Shown here one piece after another: positions 3,385 to 21,307 of a DNA stretch of 22,215 nt. Every line of letters begins with the position of its first letter. Position 1 is the first letter of the stretch. Under the pieces are notes generated by a model, which saw nothing but the letters and a program-made list of their open reading frames with translations, was not told the origin of the DNA and searched no databases. Both the position numbers and the translations under genes were made by a program. Source of the stretch: a virus. The stretch covers positions 1 to 22,215 of the IMG/VR virus record IMGVR_UViG_3300022927_000138; one strand, written 5' to 3'.

Positions 3385-4017
3385 TTAATGTAATTTGACA
3401 TTTCCTGTCAGGTTGAAATCATCTAGGGAATATAGATGTAATAGTTTTATCTCAGGCGGCATCAGAAAGTCCTTGTCAAAGTTATCATCATGCACACCCT
3501 TGTTTACCTTGTTCACCAGACTGAATGCAAATGGTAACACAGGCAAATCGTACATTTGTAGAATGTCATATGCTGTTCTCATTGAATCACCAGAGTTGCA
3601 GATATCGTCCAACAACATAGTTGGCGTGTAATCTGGACAGCCCTCAATCCAATTGCGTAGTGCATATGTCTTTTGTTCTTTTCTTATGGAATATCCGTTT
3701 ATGTGTACACCGAATGCCTGCATGTAGATAGGAATTGCAGTAATCATTGGTGTTGATGCAGTCTCTAGTCCAGAGAGCTGGAAGTCAAAGTGTCCTACCT
3801 CTTCTGCAACCTTCTTCGCCCACATCTGTGTCATTGCACTCAGAAAGTCTGTGCGAAAAAGGCCATTCCGTAAATAGAATACCCATGTATATGTTGTGCC
3901 TGGGATTTTGCCAGGCAGAGTATTCCCCGGCTTCGTGCGAATAATACAATGTTCATCAATAAAGTCTCGTGTCTGTTGCCAGAGACTTTCATACTTTTCA
4001 TCACTAATAATGTCCAT
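3385..4017 (-). CDS. Phosphoribosyltransferase (orotate PRTase-like)
   Basis: A 210-aa type I phosphoribosyltransferase. The PRPP-binding loop is clear at about residues 134-145 (MLLDDICNSGDS). Upstream, SIRKEQKTY at about 110-118 matches the R-K-E-x-K segment of orotate phosphoribosyltransferases, and LETASTPMI resembles the preceding substrate strand. The likely reaction is transfer of ribose-5-phosphate from PRPP to a base, i.e. pyrimidine synthesis or salvage for phage DNA. Length is close to the usual 200-220 residues. GAGGG precedes the start. The gene follows promoter P4 (4167-4195). Confidence 0.78.
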   Translation of the reverse strand: MDIISDEKYESLWQQTRDFIDEHCIIRTKPGNTLPGKIPGTTYTWVFYLRNGLFRTDFLSAMTQMWAKKVAEEVGHFDFQLSGLETASTPMITAIPIYMQAFGVHINGYSIRKEQKTYALRNWIEGCPDYTPTMLLDDICNSGDSMRTAYDILQMYDLPVLPFAFSLVNKVNKGVHDDNFDKDFLMPPEIKLLHLYSLDDFNLTGNVKLH

Positions 4018-16616: not shown

Positions 16617-17183
16617 ATGACATACTTTGATGATATACTAGAAAAAACTGGCGGCAAAGAACGCAGCGTTAGATGGTTTCGTGAGAAAGTTAAAGAACTT
16701 GGAACACCACCATCTCGTCAACTCATTTCTGAGGGGATTGTGACTGGCCGTCCAAGTTTTGGTCGAATGAATTTCTTTTACTACGATCCAAAACATAAAT
16801 TTGAATTACCATACTATGATAGGTTTCCATTGGTTATGCCAATTGAAGAGTACAGAGATGGGTTCTTAGGATTAAATTTTCACTACCTATCTATACCTAT
16901 GAGATTAAAACTGTTGAACATAATTACAGAGTATGCATCAAATGATAGGATGGATGACACTACGAGAATCCGACTTACATGGAACAGAATTAAAAGAAAC
17001 CCTATGGTCAAACCAACAGTAAAAAGATATTTGGCAGATCATGTCAAAACACCATTCCGTAGAATTGATGCAGACGAAATGATGGTTGCAGTATTGTTAC
17101 CTGTTCAGAAATTTGTTAAAGCAACTGAAAACAAAGTTTATGCAGATTCTAGAAGAATGATAAACACAAGGAGGCCTGTATAA
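16617..17183 (+). CDS. Conserved T4-like phage protein (188 aa), probable virion/tail assembly role
   Basis: Pattern: ERSVRWFREKVKELGTPPSR at the N-terminus, GRMNFFYYDPKHKFELPYYD, then YDRFPLVMPIEEYRDGFLGL and NFHYLSIPMRLKLL. I recognise this Y-x-D-R-F-P-L-x-x-P block from proteins of many T4-like and related phages, usually in the structural region and without an agreed role. The highly basic C-terminus (SRRMINTRRPV) could bind DNA or the virion interior. Its last base overlaps the next ATG (TAATG), so it is coupled to the tail-tube-fold gene. Confidence 0.7.
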   Translation: MTYFDDILEKTGGKERSVRWFREKVKELGTPPSRQLISEGIVTGRPSFGRMNFFYYDPKHKFELPYYDRFPLVMPIEEYRDGFLGLNFHYLSIPMRLKLLNIITEYASNDRMDDTTRIRLTWNRIKRNPMVKPTVKRYLADHVKTPFRRIDADEMMVAVLLPVQKFVKATENKVYADSRRMINTRRPV

Positions 17184-17965
17184 TGGCAGCTTTAGACGAA
17201 TTCATCAGCAGTTTTAGTAAGTATGGTGGGCCTGCACTTTTAAACAGATTTGAAGTTGTTATCATAGCACCAGCAGAAGCGGTTCCAAGTTATGATGACG
17301 ATAGACATGTTTCATTTAGAGTTGAAACTGTAACAATGCCTGGCAGAAACATCAGAACTGTTACGAATGAAAATATCTATGGGCCAACACATGAGATGGC
17401 ACAAGGTTTGACATATGCTGAAGATGTGTCTATGACTTTCTTTTTATCAGCAGAACACTTTGAAAGAAATTATTTTATGATGTGGATGGATTATATCTAT
17501 AAACCAAACACTTTTGATTTGGAATATTATCAAGCATATCATCGTCCTATAAACATATACCAATTAGGTAAAAATGGAAAAAGACTGTCTGGTGTTCGAT
17601 TGAATCAAGCATTTCCAAAAACATTAGGCCCCATTGAGTTTTCTCAATCATCCTCAGATTTGGGTAGACAAGAAGTTTCTTTTGCATTTAAGGACATAAC
17701 ATTCTTAGATGCAAATGGAAGGTCTATTTCAAATCCAGACAGAAGAGCTGGTAGTTATAGCAGAGAACAAATTTATCCAGTTTCAGAAACACCCGCCTTG
17801 GATAGAACATCTAGTATTGATGCTTTTAGGAGACTTCAAAATATAAATGCTGCACCCATTGAGCAGTCTATTCGTACAGCTGGGTACACACCAGATAGAT
17901 TTACCACTGTAGAAGAAAGACGAAACTTTCCAAATGCAGATGTTGATGAATTCGGGCCAGTATAA
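17183..17965 (+). CDS. Tail-tube-fold protein (gp19/gp54-like)
   Basis: A 260-aa protein whose first 190 residues follow the tail-tube plan: LLNRFEVVIIAP, FRVETVTMPGRNIRTVTNEN, VSMTFFLSAEHFERNYFMMW with MDYIY, LEYYQAYHRPINIYQL, then FPKTLGPIEFSQSSSDLGRQ and EVSFAFKDI. T4 gp19 (tube) and gp54 (baseplate tube initiator) share this fold. Its place beside gp26 and away from a sheath gene favours a baseplate/tube-initiator role over the main tube subunit. The last 70 residues are polar and disordered-looking. Ends 31 bases before gp26. Confidence 0.7.
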   Translation: MAALDEFISSFSKYGGPALLNRFEVVIIAPAEAVPSYDDDRHVSFRVETVTMPGRNIRTVTNENIYGPTHEMAQGLTYAEDVSMTFFLSAEHFERNYFMMWMDYIYKPNTFDLEYYQAYHRPINIYQLGKNGKRLSGVRLNQAFPKTLGPIEFSQSSSDLGRQEVSFAFKDITFLDANGRSISNPDRRAGSYSREQIYPVSETPALDRTSSIDAFRRLQNINAAPIEQSIRTAGYTPDRFTTVEERRNFPNADVDEFGPV

Positions 17966-17996
17966 TAATTACATAATGCACTATAGGAGATAAATT

Positions 17997-18698
17997 ATGG
18001 CATTACCAAAACTCGCTTCGGCGAAATATGAGTTGACGCTCCCTTCAACTGGACAAAAAGTTGAATACCGTCCATTCCTTGTAAAAGAGGAAAAGGCACT
18101 GATGCTTGCACAACAAGCAGGCACACAGGCAGATATGATAAGAGCAGTACAGGACATTGTAGAGTCTTGTACATTTGACACTCTTAAGCCAAAAGAACTG
18201 CCAATTTTTGATATTGAGTATGTTTTTATTCAGTTGCGTGCCAAGTCAGTTGGTGAGAAAACAGAGGTAACTATCACTTGTCCAGATGACAAGGAGACAA
18301 AAGCCTCTTTGGAAATTAATCTATCAGAAATTGAATGTGTTCGTGAAGTTGGACACGATACAAAGATTAAATTGACTGATACTATTGGAATAATCATGGA
18401 TTATCCAAAGATTGATATGATGGCACAACTAGATACAGAAAATGAAACAGTTGCTACATTTGAAGTAATTAAAAATTGCATCAGTCAAATTTATGATTCA
18501 GAAAACGTATATGTTAGAAATGACATGGAAGATAAAGAGCTAGATGAGTTCATTGAGTCTATGACACATGAACAGTTTGAAAAAGTAAACCAGTTCTTTG
18601 CATCTATGCCAAGAGTTAAAAAATCTGTTAAAGTTAAAAACCCCAAAACTGGTGTTGAGAGTGAAGTTGTTCTACAGGGAATGTCTGATTTTTTTTAA
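17997..18698 (+). CDS. 26: Baseplate hub/tail-assembly protein gp26 (chaperone G-like)
   Basis: A 233-aa protein of the T4 gp26 baseplate family. It shows ELTLPSTGQKVEYRPFLVKE followed by EKALMLAQQAG, the EYVFIQLRAKSVGEKTEVTI strand pair, then TITCPDD, and a C-terminal MTHEQFEKVNQFFASMP helix with a KSVKVKNPKTG hairpin. AGGAG stands before the ATG. The last codons, GAT TTT TTT TAA, contain an eight-T run that forms a slippery site, so a part of the product is predicted to continue in the -1 frame into the gp51-like part (298 residues in total). gp26 here would be the short (G-like) tail chaperone and the fusion the long (GT-like) one. Confidence 0.85.
   Translation: MALPKLASAKYELTLPSTGQKVEYRPFLVKEEKALMLAQQAGTQADMIRAVQDIVESCTFDTLKPKELPIFDIEYVFIQLRAKSVGEKTEVTITCPDDKETKASLEINLSEIECVREVGHDTKIKLTDTIGIIMDYPKIDMMAQLDTENETVATFEVIKNCISQIYDSENVYVRNDMEDKELDEFIESMTHEQFEKVNQFFASMPRVKKSVKVKNPKTGVESEVVLQGMSDFF
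18689..18695 (+). promoter_or_regulatory. Slippery heptamer for -1 frameshifting
   Basis: T TTT TTT in the gp26 frame (TTT at 18690-18692 and 18693-18695) with the UAA stop immediately after. Both tRNA-Phe can re-pair perfectly after a one-base backward slip. The next base, T18696, makes a run of eight. Confidence 0.75.
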
Positions 18699-18892
18699 TA
18701 GCCCTTTCCCACAATAGTTTGGAAAATTATTACCGAATGAATTTCCAACTGATGCAACATCACAAATACTCCTTAACAGAAATAGAGAATTTGATACCGT
18801 GGGAAAGGGAAGTTTATGTTTCTCTACTCCTACAACATTTAGAGGATGAGAGAACAAGACAGAGACAGCAAGCAGCTGATAGAAAGAGATAA
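18695..18892 (+). CDS. 51: gp51-like reading frame, -1 extension of gp26 (chaperone T-like)
   Basis: The -1 frame is open from the slippery site to TAA at 18890-18892, 65 codons: LIALSHNSLENYYRMNFQLM, then QHHKYSLTEIENLIPWEREV and a charged helical tail (EDERTRQRQQAADRKR). The S-L-x-E-I-E-x-x-I-P-W-E-R-E-x-Y motif marks the gp51/tail-chaperone C-terminal partner. An ATG at 18737 would give a 51-aa stand-alone protein, but no ribosome-binding site precedes it and coding-like sequence (NSLENYYR) continues upstream of it, so expression as a gp26 fusion is favoured. The fusion probably assists loading of the tape measure during tail assembly. Confidence 0.72.
   Translation, partial: LIALSHNSLENYYRMNFQLMQHHKYSLTEIENLIPWEREVYVSLLLQHLEDERTRQRQQAADRKR
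18702..18809 (+). promoter_or_regulatory. Long-loop 11-bp stem downstream of the slippery site
   Basis: CCCTTTCCCAC (18702-18712) and GTGGGAAAGGG (18799-18809) are perfectly complementary over 11 bp, closing an 86-base loop. The first arm begins six bases after the slippery heptamer, the spacing expected for a stimulator of -1 frameshifting. The second arm encodes part of the conserved PWERE motif. Confidence 0.65.
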
Positions 18893-18910: not shown

Positions 18911-19255
18911 ATGGCTGAGGAAGAGAAAAAGACTGTTACCGTTGACGCAGCGGTAGCAAAGCGAGATTTGAATGGAGATGGACACATCTCTCAAGAAGAA
19001 TATGAGATGAATATGGAATTTAGAAGAAAAGAACTAGAGGATGCAGATGCTCGTAGAGATGCAATGCGTCAAATGGCATGGTTCTCTTTATTTGGTATGT
19101 TACTATATCCCTTTGCTGTTGTCCTTGCAGTTTGGGTTGAATTAGATCAAGCATCAAAAATACTTGGTGACATGGCCGCAACATATTTTGTTTCAGTTGC
19201 TGCAATCGTTATGGGTTTCTTTGGTGCAAACGCTTATGCAGATAAAAAGAAATAG
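18911..19255 (+). CDS. EF-hand protein with two membrane helices
   Basis: A 114-aa protein. Residues 19-30 are a textbook EF-hand calcium loop (DLNGDGHISQEE: D, N, D at positions 1, 3, 5, Ile at 8, Glu at 12). A charged helix (34-54) and two hydrophobic helices (about 56-76 and 88-108) follow, with a basic end (DKKK). It is therefore likely a membrane protein with a cytoplasmic calcium-binding head. AAGGAGAG gives a strong ribosome-binding site. It sits between the tail chaperone and tape-measure genes. A holin-like or tail-tip membrane role is possible but not shown by sequence. Confidence 0.72.
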   Translation: MAEEEKKTVTVDAAVAKRDLNGDGHISQEEYEMNMEFRRKELEDADARRDAMRQMAWFSLFGMLLYPFAVVLAVWVELDQASKILGDMAATYFVSVAAIVMGFFGANAYADKKK

Positions 19256-19264
19256 GTAATTTAA

Positions 19265-21307
19265 ATGGCAAACTTTTCAGAAGTCGTTGATGAACTAAAA
19301 GAAAACAATCAAAAAACCGCAGATCTTGTGAATTTACAACAACAAGAAGTTGCTGTAGAAACTGCAGCGGGCGGTGCAGCTTCTGCGAGTGCCAAAGAAA
19401 CAGAAAAGAACAGAGAGGGTGAGCGTTCTCAAAACAAAATACTTGCCTCACTCCAATCAATTTCTGGTGGAATTAAGGGGATGGCTGGTAACTTCGGTGA
19501 AATGTTAAAAGACAAAGGAAAACAAGTTGGCGGTGATATCTTTGGTATGTTGAAAAAGTTTGCATTTGGTGCAGCAGTTGCTGGTGTTCTTGTATTTCTA
19601 AAAAGTAAGTATTGGGAAGATACAAAGAAATTTATTGTTGAGGATATGATTCCAGCACTCAAAAATCTTTGGGAAAATGTACTGTCACCTATCTTATCTG
19701 TATTTAAAGATGTATTTGTAAAACAATGGGAAAATGTCAAAGGTCTATTTGATGATCTTGGTACTGCAATTGATCAATTTGCAAGTGGTGATATCTTAGG
19801 TGGTATCACAACTTTGATTGGTGGACTGGGCGAATTCTTCTTTAAAACTGTAGATAATGTATTAACTGGTATATTTAATCTGGTTGCTGGACTCTTTGGA
19901 TTTGAAGGTACTGATTCTATTGGTATGTCTATGTTCAGTTTTATCCTTGACACATGGAGTACAATTACAGGTGCATTTGATGATGTTGTTGAATGGTTTG
20001 GTAGTGCATTCACATGGGCAAAAGAAGGACTTTTGGGTGCTTGGACTTCATTGACTGACTTCGTATCTGAAAAGTGGAACGCAACAAAAGATTTCTTTAC
20101 TGAAAGTTATACATGGGCAAAAGAAGGTATTGCTGGTACTTGGACTTCATTGACTGACTTTGTGACTGATAAGTTTACTAAAGCAACAGAGTTCTTTACG
20201 GAAGTGTTTACTGATCCAAAGTCTGCACTTCAAAATTTGTGGAAGGGAATTACTGGTGATGGTGGACTTGTAGATTTGTTGTTTAGTCCAATTGATTCAG
20301 CCATCACAACTGTAACTGGTTGGTTTAATATTACTATGCCCGCAGATTGGTCACTCACACAGACAGTAAAAGATGCATTGAATATAGTATTTGATTGGAT
20401 TGACTTGGCATTTGTAGATCCTAAAGCTGCACTTGAACAACTATGGACAGGACTAGTTGGTGAAGGTGGTTTGGTAGATTTCTTATTTAAACCAATTGAT
20501 AAAGCAATCGCATGGATACAAGGTGTTTTCAGTTTTGGCAATCCAGAAGAACCGTTTAAAATGAGCACACTGGTAAAAGATGCATTCAAATCTGCTAAAG
20601 AATGGGTAACAGGATTGTTTACATGGGGTGCAGAAGCCGGTACAACTGAAGCAGGCGACTTCTCTATCTCAAAACTTGTTAAAGGTGCAATAGAGAATAT
20701 ATGGAACTGGTTCAAAGGCCTGATGAGTATTGATATTAACTCTATTATTAAATCTATTCCTGGCGCTGAAACCTTACTGTCATGGTTCGCCGCAGATGCA
20801 ACCGAACAAGCACTTGCAGCTGCAACTGAAAGTGGTTTTTATGATAAAGATTGGGTTGGTAATTCAGAGATTAACAGAACAATGGTTGGTTCTGTTCCAC
20901 CAGAACAAATTCAAGCAATCCTTGCTGACAATGATATTAGTGATAGAGATAAACAGTTTCTATTGGACGAACTTGCAAGAAGAGGTGTTCCAACTATGGC
21001 AAAAGGCGGCCCTGTTCAATTAGGAAAATCTTATATTGTGGGAGAACAAGGAAGAGAATTCTTTATACCTACATCAAATGGATTGATTGTACCAGATGTT
21101 TCCAGTGCAAGTGCTAGAACAAATATGGTTCAGTCTGGTTCTGTATCTAATATTGCAAATAGTGTTAGTGGGGGAACTACTATCATCAACGCACCACAAT
21201 CAAATACAAACATCTCTGGTGGCAGCGGTGGTGGTGGAAGAATTATTCCAATGAATGTTACTGATAATGATCCGACATTCAGAGCGATTGCTGCAAACTC
21301 ATTTTAA
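19265..21307 (+). CDS. Tail tape-measure protein
   Basis: A 680-aa protein with the tape-measure marks: a charged helical N-terminus (DELKENNQKTADLVNLQQQE), one hydrophobic segment (about 98-112, FAFGAAVAGVLVFL), long helical repeats and the C-terminal signature GGPVQLGKSYIVGEQGREFF at about 581-600, common to many phage tape measures. A 33-residue repeat (WAKEG...WTSLTDFV, from about 250 and 283) and a 68-residue repeat (DPKSALQNLW/DPKAALEQLW with GGLVD, from about 317 and 385) are visible. At about 0.15 nm per residue it would span a tail near 100 nm. Follows the chaperone genes, the standard order. T4's counterpart is gp29. Its stop overlaps that of the opposite-strand gene. Confidence 0.8.
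   Translation: MANFSEVVDELKENNQKTADLVNLQQQEVAVETAAGGAASASAKETEKNREGERSQNKILASLQSISGGIKGMAGNFGEMLKDKGKQVGGDIFGMLKKFAFGAAVAGVLVFLKSKYWEDTKKFIVEDMIPALKNLWENVLSPILSVFKDVFVKQWENVKGLFDDLGTAIDQFASGDILGGITTLIGGLGEFFFKTVDNVLTGIFNLVAGLFGFEGTDSIGMSMFSFILDTWSTITGAFDDVVEWFGSAFTWAKEGLLGAWTSLTDFVSEKWNATKDFFTESYTWAKEGIAGTWTSLTDFVTDKFTKATEFFTEVFTDPKSALQNLWKGITGDGGLVDLLFSPIDSAITTVTGWFNITMPADWSLTQTVKDALNIVFDWIDLAFVDPKAALEQLWTGLVGEGGLVDFLFKPIDKAIAWIQGVFSFGNPEEPFKMSTLVKDAFKSAKEWVTGLFTWGAEAGTTEAGDFSISKLVKGAIENIWNWFKGLMSIDINSIIKSIPGAETLLSWFAADATEQALAAATESGFYDKDWVGNSEINRTMVGSVPPEQIQAILADNDISDRDKQFLLDELARRGVPTMAKGGPVQLGKSYIVGEQGREFFIPTSNGLIVPDVSSASARTNMVQSGSVSNIANSVSGGTTIINAPQSNTNISGGSGGGGRIIPMNVTDNDPTFRAIAANSF
20012..20166 (+). 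repeat. In-frame 99-base tandem repeat in the tape measure
   Basis: ACATGGGCAAAAGAAGG occurs at 20012 and again at 20111, and the shared GGACTTCATTGACTGACTT follows in both copies. The spacing is 99 bases (33 codons), so each copy encodes WAKEG-x-x-G-x-WTSLTDFV. Such repeats let tape measures change length. Confidence 0.75.
20213..20512 (+). repeat. In-frame 204-base protein-level repeat in the tape measure
   Basis: Two copies start at 20213 and 20417, 204 bases (68 codons) apart. Each encodes D-P-K-x-A-L-x-x-L-W-x-G-x-x-G-x-G-G-L-V-D-x-L-F-x-P-I-D-x-A-I. The DNA is more diverged than the protein, indicating an older duplication than the 99-base one. Confidence 0.65.

Follow-up and report, generated by a model that had tools for sequence, protein, structure and literature searches.

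The 22,215-base IMG/VR virus record analysed here (IMGVR_UViG_3300022927_000138, referred to over its whole length as the window), which is from a marine T4-like phage, carries a gp26-family gene that is best explained as encoding a pair of tail assembly chaperones (TACs), one short and one long, through a programmed −1 ribosomal frameshift at its 3' end, a reading that comparison with related sequences makes almost certain. The core idea of a frameshifted chaperone in T4-like phages was already published in 2022, and the gain made here is therefore confirmation, breadth and a candidate RNA element, with no new principle.

A conserved slippery site at the end of gp26

The gp26 gene of the window ends GAT TTT TTT TAA, with an eight-T run at 18689–18696 that places a T_TTT_TTT heptamer in the gp26 frame directly before the stop codon (TAA, 18696–18698), and the next in-frame codon is a second stop, TAG. 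The −1 frame is open from 18695 to 18889 (65 codons) and is closed by a stop at 18890–18892, so that a fusion protein of 298 amino acids (aa) is predicted. Both the heptamer and the open frame had been reported in a first-pass annotation made from the sequence without database searches, and both were found as described. The general rule for −1 frameshift signals, as outlined in PMC7618472, is an X_XXY_YYZ heptamer, a spacer of 5–9 nucleotides (nt) and a downstream structure; the window fits this rule with T_TTT_TTT, 6 nt and an 11-base-pair (bp) stem.

In the mechanism proposed, the majority of ribosomes would terminate at TAA 18696, yielding the 233-aa short form (TAC-N, gp26), and a fraction, with the two Phe codons positioned on U_UUU_UUU, would slip back by one base and add 65 codons, yielding the 298-aa long form (TAC-NC). 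Slippage would probably be boosted by the stem lying 6 nt downstream and by the stop codon straight after the heptamer. Judged by analogy to lambda gpG/gpGT, the tape measure protein (encoded at 19265–21307) would become coated with the short form, and the long form, at low stoichiometry, would bring in tail tube subunits through its helical C-terminal domain. We infer the slippage itself, its efficiency and the binding to both the tape measure and the tube.

Scanning IMG/VR with the 298-aa fusion as query gave 74 loci, to which isolates were added (HTVC008M, Syn19, Melnitz-3, S-PM2, phiM7, ValKK3, Aeromonas P19, Xanthomonas X1, a Desulfovibrio phage, and others), for a total of 84 readable junctions. 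T_TTT_TTN in the gp26 frame, together with a gp51 domain in the −1 frame, was present in 82 of these. The heptamer-bearing set comprises 65 distinct junctions, falling into 41 clusters at 85% gp26 identity. The last base of the heptamer may be T, C, A or G, exchanging Phe for Leu in the zero frame while the six T remain constant, and the residue before the first Phe may be Asp, Ser, Asn, Thr or Ala, though its codon ends in T every time. That first Phe codon is TTT without exception. Of the 173 F[FL] dipeptides found at other positions in gp26, just 4 are encoded with T_TTT_TT. The heptamer was also found in the further records ACG-2014e, S-CAM4, ACG-2014d and Vibrio phage D479, as well as in Stenotrophomonas phage Ps15.

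The first-pass annotation had cautioned that an extra T in the homopolymer would create a plain in-frame fusion, in which case the frame change would be an artefact of sequencing or assembly. Homopolymers are error-prone, and the run of Stenotrophomonas phage IME-SM1 is apparently shorter by one T than that of its sister phage Ps15. The same eight T, however, are found in four contigs from other metagenomes (L001–L004), and the −1 relation holds in all 65 distinct junctions, isolates included, with runs of 6, 7 or 8 T that are often broken by C, A or G. The constant frame relation across interrupted runs refutes a homopolymer error for the family, and this explanation has next to no chance of being correct for the window; the caution can be withdrawn.

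Long homopolymers can also make RNA polymerase slip. Were a U added to or lost from the transcript, the long form would be translated from an edited mRNA, and the eight T of the window would lend themselves to this. Six-T runs, which are short for polymerase slippage, are nevertheless common among the 65 distinct junctions (TTTTTTC in 22, TTTTTTA in nine and TTTTTTG in three), and the phase of the heptamer, the 6-nt spacer and the downstream structure suit ribosomal slippage instead. Transcriptional slippage was rejected on these grounds as extremely unlikely.

Three genomes count against the frameshift reading. The heptamer is missing from two of the 84 junctions, those of Salmonella phage Maynard and IME-SM1, and likewise from Vibrio phage K413, a further record outside the 84. 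In Maynard (3640–3960) and K413 (2049–2252) a gp51-like domain follows gp26 directly in the −1 frame, at junctions reading ATT TTC ATT TAA and CTT TTC AAG TAA, respectively, and a different slip site or mechanism may be in use. The T run of IME-SM1 (NC_054952.1, 3725–3770) reads GAG GAT TTT TCG, compared to GAG GAT TTT TTC GGC TGA in Ps15, and its annotated gp26 open reading frame (ORF) continues in another frame as a consequence of the shorter run. This is likely a homopolymer error in the record, or else a loss of the site.

The C-terminal domain and its lack of a separate start

The domain encoded in the −1 frame of the window matches phrog_634, annotated as 'baseplate hub assembly catalyst' (3.1e-29), and also the C-terminal extension of phrog_150 (positions 236–280). 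The earlier description of this domain as gp51-like is upheld by both matches, with the qualification that, on profile evidence, it equals the C-terminal part of T4 gp51 and not the whole protein. AlphaFold predicts, with good confidence, an all-helical domain of three helices (predicted local distance difference test, pLDDT, 86.7); no convincing model was returned by a Pfam search with the domain, and its Foldseek matches were uninformative.

In the databases this domain generally appears, where annotated, as a separate small protein. Such a protein would need either an internal start of its own or termination and reinitiation at the gp26 stop, and in many records a short gp51 is annotated as beginning at an internal ATG; those inspected carry either this, from a non-conserved ATG, or no gp51 at all, and none carries a joined coding sequence. 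The 54–57 aa extensions of Aeromonas P19 and Xanthomonas X1, for instance, are unannotated or mis-started.

Start codons were surveyed in 55 aligned extensions and 62 gp26 starts, with a 4-mer counted as a Shine-Dalgarno (SD)-like motif. Conservation of the domain begins at the slip site, both other frames have stops in 55/55 extensions, and no ATG was found in the −1 frame 5' of the slip site, overlapping gp26, in any of the 55. The first ATG lies anywhere from codon 4 to codon 33, its position is not conserved, and it is preceded by an SD-like motif in 0/55 cases, compared to 59/62 for gp26. In the window's group there is no ATG near the stop, and the sole early ATG of the window's −1 frame, at 18737, lacks a ribosome-binding site, as had been noted, and is not conserved in relatives. 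The invariant or near-invariant residues L4, H6 and L9 of the extension also precede the annotated gp51 starts. In phiM7 and ValKK3 an ATG does overlap the gp26 stop, making reinitiation conceivable there, but both phages retain the heptamer. In T4, moreover, a single gene encodes the domain joined to a gp26-like protein. A separately initiated gp51 is therefore very unlikely, and the search for a gp51 start with its own ribosome-binding site, proposed with the first-pass annotation as a means of refutation, gave none with an SD-like motif in the extensions surveyed.

The conserved heptamer, the rarity of T_TTT_TT elsewhere in gp26, a domain that begins at the slip site and the absence of an SD-bearing start together make programmed −1 frameshifting at the window junction near-certain. 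The G/GT-like pair put forward earlier thus receives strong comparative support. It also follows that cyanophage and pelagiphage genomes misannotate the long form or miss it.

The proposed downstream stem

The two arms of the proposed stem, CCCTTTCCCAC and GTGGGAAAGGG, are exact reverse complements over 11 bp, enclose a loop of 86 nt and begin 6 nt past the heptamer, in agreement with the original description. Under codon-preserving nulls the arm duplex of the window gave z = −2.8 (own codons permuted) and z = −4.0 (codons resampled), and the RNA folding that had been suggested as a check gave z = −4.2 for a 142-nt single-strand fold against dinucleotide shuffles. Among 38 cluster representatives the duplex is stronger than codon-preserving expectation in 19 (p < 0.05), with z of about −2 to −5 within the window's group. 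The wider 121-nt downstream fold has a mean codon-preserving z of −2.8, compared to −1.35, −0.75 and −0.66 (mean −0.9) for three control windows in gp26 (Mann-Whitney p 8e-10).

Within the window's group, counting from the slip, the stem has a fixed start at nt 8 and closes at nt 115. In an alignment of 51 sequences, 80% of arm cells pair, compared to 43–62% when the arms are slid, and 45 arm cells are altered on both sides, which was reached in 0/500 shuffles (with no correction for descent). In rows with CTN and GAR codons, the third base of a Leu codon (column 18) is strongly associated with that of a Glu codon (column 117), the combinations being CG 24, TA 18, CA 3 and TG 0 (Fisher p 8e-10, without phylogenetic correction). 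Less favourable is that concordance was seen in only 3/6 phylogenetically independent pairs with a difference at column 117, and that the stem is missing or altered in several lineages, three of which (L048, L064 and L068) have an alternative stem starting at nearly the same distance. The covariation is therefore supportive, not conclusive. RNAalifold found no consensus structure across all 51 junctions, probably owing to the long range of the stem and its absence from some lineages, and per-sequence codon-preserving tests were used in its place. A very stable structure is also present 3' of the slip site in Desulfovibrio phage 7757 (about 2489–2620; codon-preserving z −5 to −7), where a 14-bp hairpin lies farther downstream than the stem of the window.

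It could be that the frameshift is real and the complementarity an idle by-product of codon choice. Some tailed-phage TAC frameshift sites apparently need no stimulator (PMC5009743), and the RNAalifold result and the stemless lineages would agree with this, whereas the codon-preserving nulls, the gp26 control windows, the constant spacer and the third-position covariation of columns 18 and 117 do not. An idle stem is accordingly considered rather unlikely, and a stimulatory role for the 11-bp stem is cautiously favoured. In Kyanoviridae and allied T4-like phages, frameshifting may well be driven by a conserved long-range stem that begins 6 nt past the U-run and in which the codons for A-L-S-H, at the beginning of the −1 domain, and for P-W-E-R-E pair about 90 nt apart, a stem being rebuilt with different partners in other lineages. 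No description of the downstream stem was found in the literature searched, the full text of Vladimirov et al. (2022) lying outside that search, and the conserved stem may be a new element. As a candidate stimulator it makes the efficiency of frameshifting, and hence the ratio of short to long form, experimentally addressable in a simple reporter.

Gene neighbourhood

The features discussed are listed in Table 1. For the gp26 protein of the window, the matches are to PF12322, the T4_baseplate family (1.2e-66), and to phrog_150, 'baseplate hub' (6.7e-72); its gene is preceded by an SD motif, AGGAG, at 17985–17989, and it is the only PF12322 gene in the 22-kb record. The order tail tube, TAC, one small gene, tape measure corresponds to the position of G/GT in lambda. 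A small gene of similar size to that between the chaperone and tape measure genes is also found at this position in HTVC008M and Melnitz-3; the EF-hand-like product of the window's gene is at most a putative part of the chaperone system.

Table 1. Coordinates of the chaperone locus and adjacent genes in the window
Feature	Coordinates	Strand	Basis
Tail tube protein gene, directly 5' of gp26	17183–17965	+	phrog_45 1.9e-33
gp26-family gene, predicted short chaperone form (TAC-N, 233 aa), 3' end at the slippery site	17997–18698	+	PF12322, phrog_150, SD
Slippery heptamer T_TTT_TTT, gp26 frame	18689–18695	+	Sequence; T_TTT_TTN kept in 82/84 junctions
−1 frame extension, predicted C-terminal domain of long form (TAC-NC), 65 codons and stop	18695–18892	+	phrog_634, phrog_150
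6-nt spacer, tandem zero-frame stops TAATAG	18696–18701	+	Sequence; length constant across window's group
5' arm of proposed stimulatory stem, CCCTTTCCCAC	18702–18712	+	Complementarity, codon-preserving nulls, fold
3' arm of proposed stem, GTGGGAAAGGG, over conserved P-W-E-R-E codons	18799–18809	+	Complementarity, codon-preserving nulls, fold
Small protein, EF-hand-like, with hydrophobic stretches; encoded between the chaperone and tape measure genes	18911–19255	+	Weak EF-hand match 0.0016
Tail length tape measure protein gene, 680 aa, expected chaperone client	19265–21307	+	phrog_1272 4.3e-15, phrog_58 1.6e-9

The two genes of phage T4

A review of T4 (PMC3004832) calls gp51 an essential protein of unknown function that is not found in the final particle. 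The possibility that it consists of the T domain alone was rejected, as PF12322 covers residues 1–201 of its 249 aa (3.9e-52) and its phrog_150 match (2.6e-84) runs through the C-terminal extension, with phrog_634 matched too. The phrog_150 match of T4 gp26 (208 aa) is confined to the first part of that profile, and the two T4 proteins align with each other at 2e-6. From these profile matches and the mutual alignment it follows that T4 gp51 is a complete gp26 paralogue with an added C-terminal domain, and that gp26 and gp51 are the short and long forms, encoded as paralogous genes. Since genes 26 and 51 are on opposite strands in divergent orientation, there is no frameshift between them in T4. 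The suggestion that T4 gp26 and gp51 form a G/GT-type pair consequently holds for the two homologous forms, but not for the way in which they are produced. Aeromonas phage 44RR2.8t shares the two-gene arrangement of T4. The old puzzle of the T4 hub 'chaperones' gp26 and gp51 can thereby be recast as a testable pair of short and long forms and, if the scheme proposed here is correct, loss of the slip site could account for the two-gene solution of T4.

Comparison with known chaperone systems

A chaperone role for the short and long forms towards the tape measure and tube proteins is considered likely by analogy with lambda. In that phage gpG and gpGT are made at about 30:1, the frameshifted product being needed at about 1 in 30, and the partner of the short part is the tape measure protein, that of the extension the tube protein (PMC5009743). 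The likeness to the window lies in the short ORF, which has a −1 slippery site at its 3' end; the sites themselves differ, G_GGA_AAG in lambda (PMC7618472) and U_UUU_UUN here, and the sequences are unrelated. Foldseek of gp26 against the PDB gave nothing significant, solved lambda-type chaperones included (HK97 2ob9 at E 3.6 only); this counts against the reading proposed and leaves the lambda-type role an analogy. The gp26 profile, run against PDB sequences, gave no real match, and phrog_1326, 'tail assembly chaperone', matched the window protein weakly (0.044). Against viral models, the named top Foldseek matches of gp26 were mostly gp26-like baseplate hub proteins. In Leptospira phage LE4 the proteins with the adjacent accessions A0A343LED6 and A0A343LED7 (UniProt) are possibly another short and long pair, far from the T4-like phages, with a match to the gp26 fold at E 2.6e-6 and a weak, non-significant one to the fold of the −1 domain (E 3.9).

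A −1 frameshift, at GTTTTT near the end of TAC-N, is also reported for the TAC locus of Vandenendeviridae and Andersonviridae, where the C-terminal part is mis-annotated as a separate gene, as it is for the T4-like relatives; these are other phage families, and the passages of PMC12846349 on this locus do not describe a stimulator.

The closest counterpart is the T4-like TAC itself. T4 was still given as the exception to G-T frameshifting in a 2016 review (PMC5009743), and the identification of the chaperone genes of T4-like phages is attributed to Vladimirov, Gautam and Davidson (2022, Virology 566:9–15) by PMC12846349 and PMC10274946, the former crediting that work with TAC-N genes bearing poly-T −1 signals and the latter with T4-like phages that have one short and one long fused gene instead. 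As summarised in these two papers, that system has the same families, a short form whose gene ends in a poly-T −1 site and a long form with a C-terminal domain, and nothing essential differs in the window, which combines a gp26-family N-terminal protein with a gp51-type C-terminal domain and, through its conserved T_TTT_TTN and −1 domain, would encode both forms. If the proposed stem is indeed a stimulator, the tail-length machinery of these phages would employ a structural element, unlike the tailed-phage sites that are reported without one.
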